Assembly: GCF_024204665.1 (NCBI RefSeq)
Contig: NZ_CP100355.1
Span: forward strand, 2,957,451 to 3,021,450
Length of the DNA stretch: 64,000 nucleotides
Origin: Natronosalvus rutilus
Lineage (GTDB): Archaea > Halobacteriota > Halobacteria > Halobacteriales > Natrialbaceae
Reading direction: 5' to 3'
The notes below the pieces were generated by a model. It was not told where the DNA came from, made no database searches, and worked only from the letters and a program-made list of their open reading frames with translations. This document shows, piece after piece, positions 4,747 to 18,012 of the stretch; position 1 is the first letter of the stretch; each line of letters starts with the position of its first letter. The translations under genes were made by a program, and so were the position numbers.

Positions 4747-6102
4747 CTACTCGTTCGGGACGTAACCGTGCCGTTCCTCGAGAACTGGCTCGGGGTCTCG
4801 GTAGGAGTCGTCGTGGCGATGGCAGAGACTAACCCGGTTGCTCTCACCCACGGGGTAGAACTCGGGGTGTTCGCTTCCGCAGACGCTTTCGAAGTCTGCA
4901 GCCAGCACCTCGAGTGCGGTAGCCTCGTCGTTTTGCCGGACGTGTTCGGCGATTTCGTCGAGGACCGATTGCACCTCTTCGGGGACCGAAACGTCGCTGA
5001 AGAGTTCGTCGTAAATTTCTTCGATCGTGCCAAAGCGCGTCTCTTTGCCGAGTAACGCCTTGATTCGGTCGGATACCGATCGATCGGCCCGGTGGCGCTC
5101 TCGAAGGACCTCCCGAAGCGTATCGATCCGATCCCAGAGTTCGTTGGACAGGTGTCTGTACTCCTCCGGTCGGATCCGCGCCGGACAGCGTGTGCTGAAC
5201 GGACACCCGTTCGGCGGGAATCGGGGATTTGGCGGCGTTCCCTGGAGCGTGATCCGATTTTTCTTCGCCGTCGGATCCGGTTCCGGAATCGCCGAGAGCA
5301 ACGCGTGTGTGTACGGGTTCGACGGATCGGTGAACAGTTCCTCGGTCGGTCCAATCTCCATGATGTTCCCGAGGTACATGACCGCTACCCGGTCACAGAT
5401 GTGCCTGACGACCGAGAGGTCGTGGGCGATGAACAGGTAGGTGAGCCCGAATTCGTCCTGTAAGTCCTCGAGGAGGTTGATGACCTCAGCCTGGACGGAC
5501 ACGTCGAGCGCGCTCACCGGCTCGTCGAGGACGATGAACTCCGGTTCGAGCGTCAGCGTCCGTGCGATGCCGATCCGCTGGCGCTGGCCACCGGAGAACT
5601 GGTGGGGATAGCGGTAGTAGTGTTCGCGCTGAAGCCCCACCTTCTCGAGGAGATCGCGCACGTGCTGGCGACGCTCGTCGGGTGTCTTCCAGTCGTGAAC
5701 GTCGAGCGGTTCGCGAACGATTTCGCCGACGGTCATCCGATCGTTCAGGCTCGAATCGGGATCCTGGAAGACGATCTGGGCGTCTCGACGCCAGGCCTTG
5801 AGTTTCGGGCCGCTGAGTTCCGTGATGTCGGTCCCGTCGAAGCGGATCTCGCCGCCCGTCGCCTGCTCGAGCTGGACGAGCGTTCGTCCGAGGGTCGTTT
5901 TCCCGCAGCCGGATTCCCCGACGAGCCCGAGCGTTTCACCGCGTTTGATCTCGAAGGAGACCCCGTCGACCGCTTTGACTGGGTTCCCACCCAGTAGCCC
6001 CCCTTCGTCGTAATACGTCCGTAGATTCGATACCTCGACCATGACGTCCTCGTCGGCGCCCATGGCCTCGTCGGTATCTGTACGTAGCGATTCTTGGCTC
6101 AT
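4747..6102 (-). CDS. dppF: Dipeptide/oligopeptide ABC transporter ATPase, DppF/OppF type, with large insertion
   Basis: The 451-residue ATPase has Walker [10 protein letters not shown] (residues 62-70), a Q-loop FQDPDSSLN, signature [13 protein letters not shown] and Walker [13 protein letters not shown]. It should pair with the DppD homologue to energise peptide import. The C-terminal oligopeptide-transporter region keeps four cysteines in the family pattern (GCPFSTRC ... VCGSEHP ... LCHRHD), which in relatives bind an iron-sulfur cluster. About 100 residues separate the second and third cysteines, where relatives have fewer than ten. The insert is helical and charged ([15 protein letters not shown] and later [12 protein letters not shown]). 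The start overlaps the dppD stop by 4 bp. Confidence 0.92.
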
Positions 6103-7484
6103 TGATCTTCGTTTGCACCTCCTTCAGTCGACGACGGCTCTGCCGCCTGGTCTGTGTGGTGATCGATCCGTTCGAGTTCGGACTTCCCCTCGGGATAGAG
6201 GAGACAGGCCGCCGTGTGGTCGTCGGCTCCTTCTCGGACCGGAATCGAAACGGGATGGATCTCGTTACAGGCGTCGAACGCCTCCGGACAGCGCGGTGCG
6301 AATCGACAGTACGTTGCCGGTTCGTTCGGCGTCGGCACGTTCCCTTCGATAGTCTGGAGCCGTTCTCCAACCTGTCGACCGGGAATCGATTCGAGTAGCC
6401 CCTGCGTGTAGGGGTGCTTCGGTGAAGCGAACAACGTCTCGACGTCCGCCGTCTCGACGATTTCGCCCGCGTACATGACGTTCACCCGATCGGAGACGTC
6501 GGCGATGACGCCCATGTCGTGGGTGATGAACATGATCGCCAGGTCGCGTTCTTCCTGCAGGTCCTCGAGTAGTTCGAGGATCTGTGCCTGAATCGTCACG
6601 TCCAGCGCCGTCGTCGGCTCGTCGCAAATCAGCACCTCCGGTTCACAAGCGAGTGCCATCGCGATGACCGCTCGCTGTCGCATCCCGCCGGAGAACTGGT
6701 GAGGATACTCTCTGACGCGTCGCCGGGCGTCCGGAATTCCGACGGCCTCGAGCAACTCGACGGCCTCGTTGGTCGCCTCCCCTCCGGTCATTCCCTGGTG
6801 GAGTCTGAGCGCTTCCTTGATCTGGTTGCCGACGGTATAGACGGGGTTGAGACTCGTCAGCGGGTCCTGGAAGACCATTGCAATCTTGTTGCCACGCATG
6901 GCGCGCTGGGCCTTCCCCTCGAGTCGAGTGATCTCTACGAATCCGGACTCGATCCTCGAGGGATCGTCGGGTGACCCCTCGGTCACGAAGACGAAATCGT
7001 CGGCGTCGATAAGGCCGAGCGATTCGCCATAGCCGGAGCCGAGGAAGTCGACAATCGATGCCTCCTCGGGCGATTCGTAGCCGAACGCCGCGGGCGTCAT
7101 GTCGACTTCGGGCCGGTCGAACAGCTCTGCCGGATCGTGGGTTTGCTCGAGCGCGTTCACGTCGACCGCGTTCCCTGAGAACCGCTGGGCGAATTCCCGG
7201 ACGGTCTCGAGGTGGTGGAAGCGAATACTGCTGCCGGGCAGGATTCGTCCAGGGCTGTCGACGAGCCCCATGATCGAGCGTGCGGTGACGCTCTTTCCGG
7301 ACCCGCTCTCGCCGACGATGCCGACCGTTTCACCGGTTTCGATGTCGTAGGAGATCCCATCGACAGCCCGAATCACCTCCTTGTCGGTGAAGAACGCGGT
7401 CTGGAGATTTCGAACCGAGAGGATGGTCTCGGATCGGCCTGTGTTCGTCTGCGTCGTCTGCGTCTCTGCGTTCATGGACATCAC
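6099..7484 (-). CDS. dppD: Dipeptide/oligopeptide ABC transporter ATPase, DppD/OppD type, with insertion after Walker A
   Basis: The 461-residue protein has Walker [15 protein letters not shown]-loop [17 protein letters not shown], signature [15 protein letters not shown], Walker [14 protein letters not shown] and a C-terminal four-cysteine region with normal spacing ([14 protein letters not shown] ... ACLLY). Between Walker A and the Q-loop there are roughly 85 extra residues, from [15 protein letters not shown] to [11 protein letters not shown]. The DppD homologue of the second cluster in this window lacks them. The insert would sit where the ATPase meets the permease, so it may modify coupling. 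That is inference. Start and stop overlap dppC and dppF by 4 bp each. Confidence 0.92.
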
Positions 7485-9220
7485 GCACCACCTCCAGTCG
7501 TCGTCACGTCACCTTCTCCGGATTCGCTCTCCGGATCCATCGCGTCCCGGATCCCGTCACCGAGGGCGTTGAACCCCGTGACGACGAGGACGATCAGGAT
7601 CCCCGGAATCGTCGCGATGTGCCACGATTCGGTGGAGACGTACGAGCGGCCGTCACTGATTATCCGCCCCCACTCCGGCGTCGGCGGGTTGATGCCGAGC
7701 CCGAGGAACGAGAGAGCAGCGGTGACGATGATGACACCGCCCAGCAGCAACGAGGCGTAGATCATGACGTAGCTAAAGATGTACGGAGCCATGTGCTTTC
7801 GCATCGTCATCATCGGCGTTTGACCATAGCTCTTCGCGGCGTCGACCCACTCCTGTTCGGCGACCTGGAGCGAGGGCCCGCGTATCGAACGCCACAGTCC
7901 TGGCCAGTATAGTCCGGCGAAGATGAGCGCCAGCAACAACCCGCCGTTGTAGTAGCTGGCGATGGGATGGTTCGACTCCTGGAAGACCACCGAGAGCAAC
8001 AGGACCGCCAGGAACACCGGGACGGCAATGACCGTGTCACTGACGATGACCGTGACGAGGTCGACGAGCCCCTTGTAGTAGGCAGTGAGCAACGACAGCC
8101 CGAGAGCAATGCCCGTCGCCAGCCCGATCGCCGTGATCCCGATGACTAGGGACGTTCGCGCCCCGAAGACGAGGTACGTGAACAGGTTCTTCCCGTTAGC
8201 GGTCGTTCCGAACGGCGACCACCGGTCGTAATTGTCGTAGCTCATCGGGCTAACGGGATCACTCCCCTGGGAACGCGAGTCGATGTTAGCCGTGCCGTGG
8301 CTGACTGTCTCGAGTTCACCCGACTCCGAATTTAGATACTGGAATTCGTGGCCGTACGGGCTGTAGATGTTCTCCTGCGGGCCGACAGGCCCGAGCGCGG
8401 GAGCCCACAGTGCCATCACGACGAACATGAAGACGACGATGAGTCCGAAGATTCCCCAGTAGTGATTCCGGAAGCGGTTGATCGAATCGTCTCGAGGGGT
8501 CCAGTCGGCTTCGCGGTAGTGTTCGCGGAAGATCGTGTATCCCTTCCAGAGCCACGCGAACGTAACGAACGCGTACACGTAGACGACGGCGACGCGGAGT
8601 GCCCACGCCCAGGCTGGTGAGAGACCCATAAAGGTCCCCTCCCAACCGCTGCCGTCGGGTGATCGGTACCCCTGGTTCGGAATCGTTTCTGGACTCGTGA
8701 CCGCTCCCAGCGAGGCGACCCACTCGAAGAATGACGTGAACGCCCCGACGACGAGGTCGATCGCTACGGCGGCTGGCGTCATCGTGACGACAAACGTGAC
8801 AGCCGTCAAGACGGCGAGCAACAGCCCTCGGTCGAGTCGTTCCTCGGTTACGTACGGGCTGTCGAACCGATCGTAGTGGAACCCGAACCGTTCAGCTAGC
8901 GGGCCGGTGACGATCGTCGCCCTGAGAAGGATCGTCGCCACTGATAGGACGAGTAGTGCGGTAATCACGAACCCGATTTCGGCGGCGATCAGTCCAGCAG
9001 AGGGCTGGATGTTGCCGTGAACCCAGTGGGGAATCGCAGCGAGCCCACCCAGGATCAGTCGAACCACACCGCCAAGTTTGACGATCCCCGCCCCGATACG
9101 ACCGATCTCAAGCAAGAGCAACACCCCGAGAACGGCCGCCCAGATCGCGGCCGGACGCGGATTCGCGGCAATACGTTCGCGAATCGTCTTGAGTTCGTCC
9201 GTGTCTTGATCGTGACTCAT
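7481..9220 (-). CDS. dppC: Dipeptide/oligopeptide ABC transporter permease, DppC type, with long N-terminal membrane extension
   Basis: At 579 residues this is nearly twice the usual DppC length (about 300). The C-terminal half is the normal permease: FGARTSLVIGITAIGLA, then the EAA loop EWVDAAKSYGQTPMMTMRKHM, then FLGLGINPPTPEWG. The first 270 or so residues add about five further hydrophobic segments (for example AAVLGVLLLLEIGRIG, FVITALLVLSVATILL and LLLAVLTAVTFVVT) and a charged linker READWTPRDDSINRF. A large external loop follows the first helix of the normal permease (residues about 280-350). It forms the membrane channel with DppB. It overlaps dppB and dppD by 4 bp. Confidence 0.9.
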   Translation of the reverse strand: MSHDQDTDELKTIRERIAANPRPAAIWAAVLGVLLLLEIGRIGAGIVKLGGVVRLILGGLAAIPHWVHGNIQPSAGLIAAEIGFVITALLVLSVATILLRATIVTGPLAERFGFHYDRFDSPYVTEERLDRGLLLAVLTAVTFVVTMTPAAVAIDLVVGAFTSFFEWVASLGAVTSPETIPNQGYRSPDGSGWEGTFMGLSPAWAWALRVAVVYVYAFVTFAWLWKGYTIFREHYREADWTPRDDSINRFRNHYWGIFGLIVVFMFVVMALWAPALGPVGPQENIYSPYGHEFQYLNSESGELETVSHGTANIDSRSQGSDPVSPMSYDNYDRWSPFGTTANGKNLFTYLVFGARTSLVIGITAIGLATGIALGLSLLTAYYKGLVDLVTVIVSDTVIAVPVFLAVLLLSVVFQESNHPIASYYNGGLLLALIFAGLYWPGLWRSIRGPSLQVAEQEWVDAAKSYGQTPMMTMRKHMAPYIFSYVMIYASLLLGGVIIVTAALSFLGLGINPPTPEWGRIISDGRSYVSTESWHIATIPGILIVLVVTGFNALGDGIRDAMDPESESGEGDVTTTGGGA

Positions 9221-10269
9221 TGGTCGTACCCCACGCGTGGATCAAGTATCGTGTACAAGAGGTCCTGTAGAATGTTCATACTGATCGTGATAATAGTGAA
9301 GATGTACACCAGCGACCCGGCAAGCGGCAGGTCACCCTGGGTCAACGACATGAAGTACAGCCGACCGATGCCGTTGATACCGAAGACGACCTCGACGATG
9401 ACGGACCCGCCGATCAGCAGGAACGCCTCGTTGGTGATGATCGGTACCAGCGGGATCAGGGCGTTCCGGAAGACGTGCTTCCAGATGATCACTCGGTTCG
9501 AGAGTCCCTTCGCTTTGGCCGTCTCGACGTAGTTCGAGTTGATCGTCTCGAGGACCGCCGTTCGGCCGATGCGGAGTTCGGTCGCCATCGATGCCGATCC
9601 GAGAACGATTGCCGCCGGCAGGATCACTTTAATCGCGACAGCGAGTTCCCCGCCATTGAAGTAGAACCCCCCTGGGGGGAACAACTGGGTGAATCCAACG
9701 AAGTCGAGCGGCGGCGTGCCGATGATACTATCGATGTTGGGCCCGATCGTGTACCAGTCGAACCCGAGGAATCCACCCCCCTGGGTCTGTCGCAGTATAG
9801 CCAGGAACATGATTGCGAGCCAGAAGTTCGGCATCGCCAGCCAGACGATCCCCGAGAAGGAAGCGATGTAGTCGCCCCAGCTATTCGAGTTGAGCCCAGC
9901 GTAGAAGCCGAGCGGGATCCCGATGAAAAGCGGCAGCAGGATCGCCCAGAACCCGAGCCAGACCGTTCGAGGTCCGTACGTGGCGACCATCGACGTCACG
10001 CTGTACCCGCGCCGAAGTACCCACGACTGGCCGAGATCGAAGGTGATCAGCCCGACCATGAAGTCGACGTACTGTTGCCACAGCGGCTCGTTCAATCCCA
10101 TGTTTTCGCGGATCTGTGCAGCCTGCGCTCCGCTCGCTTCCGGACCGAGCATCGCTGCAACCGGGTCGAGCGGTCCCATCCTGAGGATGACGAACAACAA
10201 CGTCATCACGAGAAAGAGGACCGGAATCGAGAGCAGGACCCGCTGGAAAAAGTATCGCCAGCGGCTCAT
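9217..10269 (-). CDS. dppB: Dipeptide/oligopeptide ABC transporter permease, DppB type
   Basis: The 350-residue membrane protein starts MSRWRYFFQRVLLSIPVLFL and has the usual six hydrophobic segments. The EAA loop is NYVETAKAKGLSNRVIIWKH followed by VFRNALIPLVPII. The C-terminus ends ILDPRVGYDQ, typical of the family. It forms the translocation pore with DppC. It is the first of four genes (B-C-D-F) whose starts and stops overlap by 4 bp, and it lies 154 bp downstream of dppA. Substrate is unknown beyond peptides or related oligomers. Confidence 0.92.
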   Translation of the reverse strand: MSRWRYFFQRVLLSIPVLFLVMTLLFVILRMGPLDPVAAMLGPEASGAQAAQIRENMGLNEPLWQQYVDFMVGLITFDLGQSWVLRRGYSVTSMVATYGPRTVWLGFWAILLPLFIGIPLGFYAGLNSNSWGDYIASFSGIVWLAMPNFWLAIMFLAILRQTQGGGFLGFDWYTIGPNIDSIIGTPPLDFVGFTQLFPPGGFYFNGGELAVAIKVILPAAIVLGSASMATELRIGRTAVLETINSNYVETAKAKGLSNRVIIWKHVFRNALIPLVPIITNEAFLLIGGSVIVEVVFGINGIGRLYFMSLTQGDLPLAGSLVYIFTIITISMNILQDLLYTILDPRVGYDQ

Positions 10270-10385
10270 GGAGCATCACACGTCTGCCAGACGTTTACCA
10301 TATGTCGCACTATCGGATCGGTATGCATTCGAGGGTATTAGGTATCATGATTTCCCCGGACGGGTTCCGAGGATGAACAATTGTG

Positions 10386-10406
10386 TCGGCGGAAACGAAC
10401 CGCCGA
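10386..10406 (-). promoter_or_regulatory. Hairpin between dppA and dppB
   Basis: A perfect 7-bp inverted repeat (TCGGCGG / CCGCCGA) with a 7-base loop starts about 20 bp after the dppA stop. Binding-protein genes are often followed by such stems, which protect or end part of the transcript so that the binding protein is made in excess. That role is inferred here. Confidence 0.5.
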
Positions 10407-10423
10407 GCTATTCGCGTCCGACG

Positions 10424-12277
10424 TTACTCTTCGCTTTCCATTTCGACTTGCCAGTCGAGATAGTAGCCGTCCGCGTCTTCGGGGATCTTTTCGGTGTTGG
10501 TGTTCTCGGGCTCGAAGCCGAACAGACCGTAGGCGATCGACGGGTAGCTCCAGATCCAGCCGAGCGAGTAGAACTGAAGTTCGCCGTCCTCACCGCGGCT
10601 GATCAGCGTGTTGAACTCGGACTGCTCGAGCTCGAGTTCGATGCCGAGGTCAGCGACTTTGTCACGGGTGATCGTAGCGGCTTCGTTGAACACTTCGCTC
10701 TCGTAGGTCGTCAACGTCAGCTCGGCTGGTTCGTCGGGCGTGAAGCCGGCCTCTTCGAGAACTTGCTGGGCGCCCTCGCGGTCAGTCTCGTTGGGCGTGT
10801 ACGGCCACTCCTCGACGAACGTCTGGTAGGCCTCGTTTCCTCCGGGGAAGATTCCCGGCGGCGTGAAGCTGAACGCCTCGACGCCACGGCCGGCGAAGAC
10901 CTGGTTAATGAGTTCCTCGTGGTCGGTGACGTACGCGATGGCCTGTCGAACCGCCTTATCAGCGTAGCGAGCGTTGAACGCGAAGTAGAACGTCGACATC
11001 TCACTCACACCGAGGTAGTTGACGGTGTCACCGTTCTCGAGCTCGCCGTAGGTACCAATCTGGCGACCCATGTCGTCCTCCTCGGCCTCGATTTTGTCCT
11101 GGTCGTAGAACGGCGTCGGGATACCGAAGATGTCGGCGTTTCGCTCGTTGTAGTACGTTCGAATAGCCTCGTCGTCCTCGATGATCTGCCAGTGAATCGC
11201 GTCGAGTTCCGGCCCGCTGCCGTGGTAGTTGTCGAACGCGGTCACCTGAACCTCGGTGCCACCCTCCCACATGTCGAACTGGAACGGTCCGCAGCCGACC
11301 ATCACTTCCTGGGAGATCTGCTCCTGGCTGTACTCCCCGTCGTAGCCCTCGATGTCGCCCACGAGTCCCTCGGGCATCGCTGCGAAGGAGTCGTAGGTGA
11401 GGATGTCGAGCGTGGACGGCTGGGGCTCCGTGATCCGCATCTCGATCGTGCGGTCGTCGACGGCCTCGACGCCGAGGGAGTCCGGGACGATCGTGGCCTC
11501 TTCGCCTTCGCCCTCCGTCTCGTGCTCGACGGCGAGGAAGCCGGGTTCGACGAGGAAGTTCGCGCGCTCGCTGGCGGTGGACTCGGCGAGACGCCGCCAG
11601 GCGTAGACGAAGTCACTCGCCGTCAGTTCGCTACCGTCGTGGAACTGGGCCTCCTTGATCGTGAACGTGTACGTCAGCAGGTCGTCGGAGACGTTGACCT
11701 CCTCGACGAGCTGGTTCTCGACTTCCGGAACGCCGTTGGGGTAGTGCACGAGGTTCTCGTACACCTGGTTGATGATGACGCCGGAAGCCGTGTCGGTCGA
11801 CTGGATCGGGTCGAGCGACGAAACCCCCGAGTTGATCAGGTTCAGCGTACCGTCCTCGGTGGTGGTTTCGTTGTGCTGCTGGCGGTGGGATCCCAGCGAC
11901 CCCGTTGGTTCGACTTCGACGGTGTCGTACCAGAAGCGCTCGGTCAGGCCGTGGTACAGCGGCAGGAGAATCATGTCGTCGCGGATGGCCTCCTCCATCT
12001 CGAGGTACGCTTCCATCCGGGTCTCCTCGTCCTCCGGCGCAGGGTTGTCCTGGGCACGCTCCCAGGCCTGCTGGGCCTTCTCGACGTTGGACAGATCCCC
12101 GTCGCCGTTGCCGTTTCCGTTTCCGTTGCCAGATTCGTTGCCGTTACCGTTACCGTCGCCGTTCCCATCACCATTGCCTTCGTCGCCGCCAAAGCACCCG
12201 GCCACCGCCGCGGTGGCTGCACCGGCGCTCGTGGCCTTCAGGAATGATCGTCGGGATACACCGTTGTCGTTGGGCAT
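10424..12277 (-). CDS. dppA: Dipeptide/oligopeptide-binding lipoprotein, DppA type, apparently circularly permuted
   Basis: The 617-residue protein has a Tat lipoprotein signal (SRRSFLKATSAGAATAAVAGC, lipid-anchoring Cys28) and a Gly/Asn/Asp/Glu linker (about residues 30-62). Residues 63-135 look like the normal C-terminal end of SBP_bac_5 proteins: AYLEMEEAIRDDMILLPLYHG, then a WYDTV strand. Only after that, from about residue 143, comes the usual start of the fold (TLNLINSGVSSLDPIQSTD, then VYENLVHYPNG). The protein stops just after YPSIAYGLFGF and DGYYLDWQ, where relatives continue into the segment found here at the front. It captures substrate outside the cell for DppBCDF. It is first in the operon with a promoter 26-31 bp upstream. 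Confidence 0.92.
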   Translation of the reverse strand: MPNDNGVSRRSFLKATSAGAATAAVAGCFGGDEGNGDGNGDGNGNGNESGNGNGNGNGDGDLSNVEKAQQAWERAQDNPAPEDEETRMEAYLEMEEAIRDDMILLPLYHGLTERFWYDTVEVEPTGSLGSHRQQHNETTTEDGTLNLINSGVSSLDPIQSTDTASGVIINQVYENLVHYPNGVPEVENQLVEEVNVSDDLLTYTFTIKEAQFHDGSELTASDFVYAWRRLAESTASERANFLVEPGFLAVEHETEGEGEEATIVPDSLGVEAVDDRTIEMRITEPQPSTLDILTYDSFAAMPEGLVGDIEGYDGEYSQEQISQEVMVGCGPFQFDMWEGGTEVQVTAFDNYHGSGPELDAIHWQIIEDDEAIRTYYNERNADIFGIPTPFYDQDKIEAEEDDMGRQIGTYGELENGDTVNYLGVSEMSTFYFAFNARYADKAVRQAIAYVTDHEELINQVFAGRGVEAFSFTPPGIFPGGNEAYQTFVEEWPYTPNETDREGAQQVLEEAGFTPDEPAELTLTTYESEVFNEAATITRDKVADLGIELELEQSEFNTLISRGEDGELQFYSLGWIWSYPSIAYGLFGFEPENTNTEKIPEDADGYYLDWQVEMESEE

Positions 12278-15639: not shown

Positions 15640-16623
15640 TCACCGCGATCCAGTGTCCACTCGAGGGTCGAGTAGCGAGTACGCCAGGTCCTGAACGACG
15701 TTGCCGACGACGCCGAAGGCGACGATGACGACCGTTACGCCCATCATGACGGGCAGGTCGCGCGTCCAGACGGCGTTGTAGAAGAGCGAGCCGATCCCGC
15801 CGATGCCGAACACGGCCTCGATGATAATCACCGAAATCGCGAGCAGCGCGAGCGTCTCGGCGAACACGAGCGAGAGCAGTGGGATCGCCGCGTTTCGCAA
15901 CACGTGTCTGGCGACGTCGAGCCGCCCACCTCCTTTCGCGCGAACGAGTTTGGTGAGGTCCGCGGTGTAGTACTGGCGGGCGTACGCTCGAGCGTAACTG
16001 ACGATGGCAGCGAGTAACGTCGTCGTCACCAGAACGACCGGGAGGACGCGCCCGTAGAGAAACGGCAACTCGGTCACCGTGATGTAGTTGAACTCGCTGC
16101 CCCACCTGAAGGCGGCAGCGGCAGTCGCGGACGCGCTCAGGATCAGGAAGCCGATCCAGAAGTTCGGAACCGCGAACAGCAGGTACACGATTCCCGTAGC
16201 TCCGTTGCCGCGAGTCGAGCGCACGTTCATGGCGGCGTAGGCGCCGACGGCCAGCCCGAGCGTGGTCGCCAGCACGATCGCCGGGACGACGTACAGCGCC
16301 GTCTCGAGGGTGGCCTCACGCACCAGCGGAAACACGGCCTCGCCACTCTGGAAGGAGTTTCCCCACTCCAGGGAGATCATGTTCCCTATCCAGTCGACGT
16401 ACTGCTCGGTGAGCGGTCGGTCGAGCCCTCGGTCGGCGAGGTACGACTGGCGAATAGACTCGAGTTCGTCGGGATCAGCGCCGCCGTAGGCTGCAAGCGC
16501 GAGCCGTCTGTCGAGCACCCAGTCTTCGGTCGCGGCGAACAGTGTGAACATCACCGTGAGCACGGCCCAGGCGGCAACTACCCCCAGTGCGAGACGCCGA
16601 GCCAGTATCCGCACCACTCTCAC
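15640..16623 (-). CDS. Peptide ABC transporter permease, DppB type (second cluster)
   Basis: The 327-residue membrane protein uses a GTG start (MRVVRILARRLALGVVAAW). It has the family end DPRVDTGSR and the EAA loop DLTKLVRAKGGGRLDVARHVLRN. The long first external loop (DWVLDRRLALAAYGGADPDEL) is normal for DppB. It is transcribed away from the dppC-D-F homologues that begin 150 bp to its right, which is an unusual arrangement. Together these genes could form one importer. No binding protein gene lies in either unit. Confidence 0.88.
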   Translation of the reverse strand: MRVVRILARRLALGVVAAWAVLTVMFTLFAATEDWVLDRRLALAAYGGADPDELESIRQSYLADRGLDRPLTEQYVDWIGNMISLEWGNSFQSGEAVFPLVREATLETALYVVPAIVLATTLGLAVGAYAAMNVRSTRGNGATGIVYLLFAVPNFWIGFLILSASATAAAAFRWGSEFNYITVTELPFLYGRVLPVVLVTTTLLAAIVSYARAYARQYYTADLTKLVRAKGGGRLDVARHVLRNAAIPLLSLVFAETLALLAISVIIIEAVFGIGGIGSLFYNAVWTRDLPVMMGVTVVIVAFGVVGNVVQDLAYSLLDPRVDTGSR

Positions 16624-16773: not shown

Positions 16774-18012
16774 ATGACGGAATCGGGATCGAACGGCCCC
16801 TCCAGGGACGAGCCACCGGGGCAGGCGGACGTCGCGGCACTCGAGCGGATCGACTGGGATCGGGTCGACTCGTCGACGCGGCGGTTTTCGACCGAACGGA
16901 TCGCGCTCGTGATCGGCGTACTCGCGGTTGGACTGGCGTACCTCTACTACCGGTCGAAGGACAGCATCTTTCTCGTCGCTCGATGGCACGTTGGTCCCGA
17001 GGACTGGCTGCTGTTGCTCGCGCTGGCCGTGGTCGTCGCTTACGGCGTCGTCCCGATGCTCCTCGACCCGTCGCGCGGCCGCCGACTCCTCGCTCGGCTT
17101 CGGCGACGGTGGGCGACAGTCGCCAGCCTCGTGGTTCTCGGCGCCGTCGTCCTCACGGCGTTCTACGCGATGATCACGGGGTTCCAGCCCCGGTTGACGC
17201 TCGACTCGGGGACGGTCGGAACCGACAAACTCCAGCCGCCAGTCGGCTTCAGCGGCTCCTACCTGGAAACGAGGCAGGACTGCGTGGGCACGGTTACTGG
17301 TGACACGATCTACGAACAGCAGTGTCACGGGACCTGGGAGTACGTGCTCGGAACCGACCGCTGGGGGTACGAGATGGTCGACCTCCTCGTGGTCGGCGCT
17401 CGACCCGTTGCCTACGCCGTGTTCGTCACCGTCGGCATCATCGTCCCGCTGGCGACGGTCGTCGGGCTCGTCGCGGGGTACTACGGCGGCTCCGTCGACG
17501 ACCTCCTGATGAGCTACGTCGACGTCCAGCTCAGTATCCCGGCGATCGTCATCTACATGATCGCGTACCTGTTCATCGGGGACTCGTTTTTCGTTCTGCT
17601 CGCCGCGTTCGGCCTGCTCTCGTGGGGCGGGATCGCCCGCATCGTCCGGAGCGAGACGCTGCAACGCCGCGAAGAAGGGTACATCCTCGCTGCCAGAGTG
17701 CTCGGGGCCTCGAGGCCGTACGTCTTGCGTCGACACATGCTACCGAACATCACCAACAGCGTGATCCCGGCGGCGTTCCACCTGATGGCCGTGCTCGTCC
17801 TGACCGAGGCCGCGCTTGCCTTCCTCGGGTTCCACGCCACGTTCCAGTCGTGGGGCATGACGATGGGCGAGGGACTGTTCAGGGCGGCCCCGCTCGATGC
17901 CTGGTGGGTCTCGACGTTCCCCGCTATCGCCCTGGGACTGACCGTCGCGGCGTTCAAGGTGGCCGGCGACGGACTACGAGACGCGCTCGATCCACGGGGG
18001 GCCCATGACTGA
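16774..18012 (+). CDS. Peptide ABC transporter permease, DppC type (second cluster)
   Basis: This 412-residue permease is about 100 residues longer than typical. The extra part is at the N-terminus: an acidic cytoplasmic start (MTESGSNGPSRDEPPGQAD), then two hydrophobic segments (ERIALVIGVLAVGLAYLYY and WLLLLALAVVVAYGVV) before the canonical first helix. The core has EAA loop GYILAARVLGASRPYVLRRH and ALAFLGFHATFQSWGMTMGE. It overlaps the next ATPase gene by 8 bp. Function: pore subunit with the divergent DppB homologue. Confidence 0.88.
   Translation: MTESGSNGPSRDEPPGQADVAALERIDWDRVDSSTRRFSTERIALVIGVLAVGLAYLYYRSKDSIFLVARWHVGPEDWLLLLALAVVVAYGVVPMLLDPSRGRRLLARLRRRWATVASLVVLGAVVLTAFYAMITGFQPRLTLDSGTVGTDKLQPPVGFSGSYLETRQDCVGTVTGDTIYEQQCHGTWEYVLGTDRWGYEMVDLLVVGARPVAYAVFVTVGIIVPLATVVGLVAGYYGGSVDDLLMSYVDVQLSIPAIVIYMIAYLFIGDSFFVLLAAFGLLSWGGIARIVRSETLQRREEGYILAARVLGASRPYVLRRHMLPNITNSVIPAAFHLMAVLVLTEAALAFLGFHATFQSWGMTMGEGLFRAAPLDAWWVSTFPAIALGLTVAAFKVAGDGLRDALDPRGAHD

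Follow-up and report, generated by a model that had tools for sequence, protein, structure and literature searches.

Does the gene at positions 10424-12277 (minus strand) of the window, the 64,000-nucleotide stretch of Natronosalvus rutilus contig NZ_CP100355.1 analysed here, encode a binding lipoprotein with its C-terminal segment moved to the front? A first-pass annotation had read residues 63-135 as the end of an SBP_bac_5 protein, had placed the usual first strand only at about residue 143, and had proposed a circular permutation. In the canonical chain the N-terminal strand comes first and the C-terminal helices and strand come last; this is not the order of the window protein. The gene very probably encodes a naturally circularly permuted binding lipoprotein of the OppA/DppA type (family 5). 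Its parts are as follows (aa, amino acids; Tat, twin-arginine translocation).

10424-12277, minus strand: whole gene, an ATG-started open frame of 617 aa, very probably a circularly permuted family-5 substrate-binding Tat-lipoprotein with type A order 5-1-2-3-4
12194-12277, minus strand: Tat signal peptide and lipobox ending in Cys28 (aa 1-28, RRSFLKATSAGAATAAVAGC), from the sequence; PF10518 E 4e-4, under its gathering score
12095-12193, minus strand: Gly/Asn/Asp linker (aa 29-61), from the sequence
11864-12094, minus strand: moved segment (aa 62-138), the canonical C-terminal segment, here in front; from homology, model and DNA comparison
11849-11863, minus strand: joint of the old C-terminus with the old mature N-terminus (aa 139-143), with no long linker; from joint comparison
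10427-11854, minus strand: main body (aa 142-617), from the canonical mature N-terminus up to where relatives enter the moved segment; from homology, Pfam and fold alignment

In the moved segment (about residues 62-138) the landmarks LSNVEKAQQAWER, EMEEAIRDDMILLPLYH and WYDTVEVEPTGSLGSHRQQHNET followed one another in this order. The canonical first strand, TLNLINSGVSSLDPIQST, started at about residue 143, and the protein ended in YYLDWQVEMESEE.

The 30 best genomic homologues were each compared with window residues 61-140 and, in a separate comparison, with residues 141-617. In 26 of them the segment preceded the main body, which is the order of the window; in the other four it stood at the end and was 49-63% identical. 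The closest test came from genome G251, of the window's own genus, which carries a 628-aa stop-to-stop open reading frame (ORF) of canonical order (L029, L098 and L117 are this same ORF). Window residues 61-140 matched its residues 547-625 with 58% identity (E 1.5e-31), and the rest of the window protein matched its residues 80-550 with 69% identity. Across our comparisons of these two proteins, amino acid identity was 58-61% in the segment and 69% in the main body. At the DNA level all blocks of the window and L098 were collinear except one of 212 bp (74.5% nucleotide identity), which in the window preceded the 1.4-kb main body and in L098 followed it.

No second copy of the segment was present at the C-terminus of the window protein, which stops, as the first-pass annotation had said, where its relatives enter the missing segment. 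All parts were present once, in cyclically rotated order, as in a circular permutant. The proposed origin of residues 63-135 and the late first strand were confirmed, and the permutation itself was supported.

The ratio of nonsynonymous to synonymous substitution rates (dN/dS, Nei-Gojobori) among near relatives was 0.08-0.37 in the moved segment and 0.10-0.29 in the main body, with permuted and canonical pairs alike. This indicated purifying selection on the moved segment, and the gene looks like a working one.

The first-pass annotation had also suggested that the Pfam SBP_bac_5 match might split into C-terminal and N-terminal halves. The PF00496 match covered only window residues 185-586 (profile 1-358 of 368; 217.6 bits against a gathering threshold of 32.4). 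The PF00496 model lacks the last segment of the family, and therefore no split is visible in the window protein. The expected split was visible, as a match in two stretches, in two other orders of the family, types B and C (below).

AlphaFold2, given window residues 60-617 with 37 type A sequences, returned a model with a mean predicted local distance difference test score (pLDDT) of 93.3 and a predicted template modelling score (pTM) of 0.90. The moved segment (pLDDT 87-96) formed two helices, a long strand and a closing stretch inside a single compact predicted fold, and not a domain of its own. Foldseek and VIA-align grouped the model with OppA, DppA, MppA and AapF (VIA Z 24-28, up to 27.8, over about 400-425 residues). 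Model residues 84-555 aligned to residues 1-439 of the 507 of DppA (1dpp_A), and the first 80 or so residues of the model and the last 68 or so of the chain were left unmatched. Sequential alignments mostly began at model residues 77-85 or thereabouts and stopped about 40-80 residues short of the C-termini of the PDB chains. With an aligner tied to sequential order, a permuted chain is expected to leave such ends unmatched. The best type A profile match ended near PDB chain residue 434 (others at most about 477), and canonical profile matches reached somewhat deeper into the C-terminal part, to 453-475 in several chains. A third phmmer stretch, to OppA 456-489, pointed in the right direction and was not significant alone.

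How widespread is this order? Queries were built by writing the unit twice (main body, segment, main body, segment), so that the start of a match reveals the cut point. They were run over overlapping sets of genomes: the family (125), the order (392), the class (242, with a type B unit), the family of genome G067 (26) and the phylum (393, with a canonical unit). For order assignment the units were split into five segments. Among 137 distinct haloarchaeal proteins, 69 had the canonical order 12345, 47 had the order of the window (51234, type A), 19 had 45123 (type B) and two had 23451 (type C). All four orders are perfect cyclic rotations, and none of the 137 showed any other order. The survey of homologues that the first-pass annotation had called for thus gave its order many times over. 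A first scan of genome contigs with a single sequence had given no match. The wider search of the phylum gave no further cut point, and one canonical match outside Halobacteria at E<=1e-30.

Type B opens between ...PGG..Y and ..YPYG.NET, and type C opens in a variable loop between ...LGV.HETE and ..PGS.AVEA. The phmmer alignment puts the cuts at about 430-445 (A), 328 (B) and 127 (C) in OppA numbering. If OppA is divided into domains in the usual way, the entry point of the linker, canonically domain I, would be domain III for types A and B and domain II for type C. No long linker separates the old C-terminus from the old mature N-terminus in types A, B and C; there the signal and linker precede the new start, and they stand at the front in all four orders.

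Type A homologues came from many genera and independent assemblies. Matching named records included those from Natronosalvus hydrolyticus, Natronoglomus, Natronorubrum, Natronococcus, Natrinema, Saliphagus, Halorubrum, Halovenus, Natrialba and Halovivax, in a listing that does not give segment order.

Several members of the family had features of their own. The two type C proteins, L178:5818-7641 (plus strand) and L199 (genomes G067 and G383), are from two genera of one family and are 48% identical. The N-terminal linker (TTTVEQEVYKPGS) and the C-terminus (ETVTVEQ) of L199 have TVEQ in common, which is perhaps a trace of a duplicated loop. The type A protein L184 (genome G339) carries an extra C-terminal tail of about 50 residues, which is rich in Gly, Asn, Glu and Thr and is similar to the N-terminal linkers. 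L070:3768-6665 (plus strand, genome G165) encodes 965 aa, in which a weak protein-kinase-like domain (PF00069, E 1.9e-5, below threshold) and an RR-type hydrophobic stretch are combined with a type A permuted binding protein; no dpp operon lies alongside. A permuted binding protein may here have been built into a membrane sensor.

Both orders occur at one locus within the genus of the window. The window, G251 (canonical) and G175 (the order of the window) share pgsA, an adk-like gene and hisC as one flank and dppBCDF as the other. A further genome of the genus, G254, is also of type A. Between the window and G251, hisC and pgsA were 94-97% identical and the operon (window 4747-12277 against L098) only 63-82%. 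The operon may have reached one of these genomes as a block, exchanged at a fixed locus. The case for G251 as a flip in place is weakened by this difference in identity: the two orders share the locus, and a flip in place is unproven.

The importer genes expected for a family-5 binding protein, two permeases and two ATPases, are present beside the window gene.

9217-10269, minus strand: DppB-like permease, same operon (PF00528, PF19300)
7481-9220, minus strand: DppC-like permease, same operon, with a long N-terminal extension (PF00528, PF12911)
6099-7484, minus strand: DppD-like ATPase, same operon (PF00005, PF08352)
4747-6102, minus strand: DppF-like ATPase, same operon (PF00005, PF08352)

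Among the loci examined with enough flank, almost all, whatever their order, headed a complete or near-complete dppBCDF operon. The DppD-like ATPase of the window (6099-7484, minus strand) has 461 aa, about 100 more than its counterpart at L178; the extra stretch sits between Walker A and the signature region, and the Pfam ABC_tran match is in two stretches. Two more permease genes of the Dpp/Opp type, at 15640-16623 (minus strand) and 16774-18012 (plus strand), lie head to head about 150 bp apart, a layout on opposite strands that is unusual for a permease pair. L091 and L098 also have a DppB-like gene on that same side. Antisense to the binding-protein gene runs a 774-aa ORF (window 9923-12247, plus strand), most likely a shadow cast by the codon bias of the GC-rich coding strand.

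How might the permuted protein work, and how could it have arisen? The sequence shows that the old mature C-terminus is joined directly to the old N-terminus, with the chain opened in a loop just before the C-terminal helices. With the Tat signal, lipobox and flexible linker kept in front, the chain should still be exported and anchored by lipid at Cys28. It would capture a peptide or related ligand and pass it to the DppBC permease of the adjoining DppBCDF importer, as the operon suggests. The model predicts the usual two-lobed trap fold, with the tether entering it at a different point. The signal and linker may act as an adaptor that fits any loop start in frame. The rearrangement probably went through tandem copies, one losing its front part and the other its end. 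Permutation by duplication is one of the two main models for circular permutation (PMC3320104).

Several points weigh against this account or parts of it. Ligand binding and transport by the window protein are putative. The placement of the moved segment at the old C-terminal site, as predicted, rests on homology and model confidence. A PDB search with the profile of the moved segment alone gave no chain at E<=1, and therefore solved structures are reached through the canonical haloarchaeal relatives. For a type B protein, AlphaFold gave an unusable model (pLDDT 50), and no conclusion was drawn from it. A duplicated segment (a C-M-C or M-C-M-C intermediate) was found in none of the 116 proteins checked, and no half-length gene was seen, half-genes not having been searched for systematically; the mutational route is thus unproven.

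Could a binding protein that is otherwise ordinary, or truncated at its C-terminus, have gained an additional N-terminal piece, either a domain unrelated to it or another copy of the C-terminal segment? Taken alone, PF00496 leaves the segment uncovered, and the failure of the segment to match a PDB chain would also fit. However, the segment is about 50-63% identical to the C-termini of canonical-order relatives, lacks a second copy in the proteins checked, lies inside the one compact predicted fold, is conserved across 47 proteins, and is under purifying selection. We regard this explanation as very improbable, and it was refuted by the canonical-order relatives that have the same segment at their end. 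An assembly error, a gene-model error or a decaying pseudogene is scarcely credible. No point in support of such an artefact was found, and the single open ATG-started frame, the dN/dS of the segment and the 47 distinct type A homologues refuted it. The same order in so many distinct proteins therefore excludes chance and assembly error.

The permuted product may also have been reached by another route, in which the segment of about 75 residues moved alone (by cut-and-paste or gene conversion), or the gene underwent fission and re-fusion, instead of tandem duplication and trimming. The lack of duplicated intermediates and the tight joints are in its favor. Three cut points that all give perfect rotations are more economically explained by duplication and trimming, and the failure to see half-genes speaks against fission within the limit stated above. 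We consider the other routes unlikely.

The number of events was estimated from the cut points and from trees. With three cut points, permutation must have occurred at least three times. In the tree, type B formed one clade (support 100), and the two type C rows stood apart, one on a long branch. The 47 type A rows shared a clade with four canonical rows (L117, L142, L144 and L189), two of them inside the subgroup of the window. Every tree shown needed four order changes. A single origin of type A, with the four canonical rows only seeming to lie inside, was rejected by the approximately unbiased (AU) test on the full alignment (p-AU 0.018, for a group chosen after the first tree had been seen). 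It was not rejected on the main body (p 0.21) or on the moved segment (p 0.24), and is a tenable if somewhat doubtful reading. Further switches, among them a return to the canonical order, are likely but unproven. We lean slightly toward viewing the haloarchaeal family-5 binding lipoproteins as a natural permutation hot spot, with at least three events at three cuts and further switches, possibly back to canonical, in the lineage of the window. On this view, with the Tat-lipobox-linker cassette in front, any in-frame loop would become usable as a new N-terminus.

A circularly permuted binding protein is already known. TpMglB-2 (Tp0684) of Treponema pallidum and its relatives is a circularly permuted, tethered cluster B binding protein, labeled Type Ic/Cluster Bc by its authors, who linked the permutation to anchoring (PMC4990184). 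Like the window family, it is a naturally permuted, lipid-anchored binding protein of an ATP-binding cassette importer, found across a clade (PMC4990184). The window family, in contrast, belongs to cluster C (family 5, PF00496) and not to the cluster B (sugar-binding type I) fold; it has three cut points, in close relatives its moved segments are about 50-63% identical between orders, and its canonical and permuted forms can be aligned as DNA.

Natural permutations are also found in DNA methyltransferases and in saposin/swaposin, and duplicated intermediates have been documented in the DNA methyltransferases (PMC3320104). These are different proteins; in the haloarchaeal family no intermediates were found, and the export signals must stay before the rotated domain. 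With canonical OppA/DppA-type proteins (PF00496, cluster C) the window protein has in common the Pfam match, the predicted fold, the DppBCDF operon and the Tat-lipobox of canonical haloarchaeal members. It differs in having the C-terminal segment first, and types B and C open at two other loops. In the open-access literature, most subscription journals being outside the search, no report of a permuted family-5 (cluster C) binding protein was found.

Profiles that depend on order, and structure aligners that work sequentially, hide proteins of this kind. In a PF00496 search the window protein is a routine hit and would be annotated merely as a substrate-binding protein. Natural circular permutants are usually isolated and ancient; here four orders stand side by side in one family, and canonical and permuted forms about 65-70% identical occupy the same locus within one genus. 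The origin of the permutants, any reversion and the effect of moving the membrane tether are therefore directly testable. The family offers a natural series of cut points for asking how proteins tolerate rearrangement, with apparently the same final shape and the same job.
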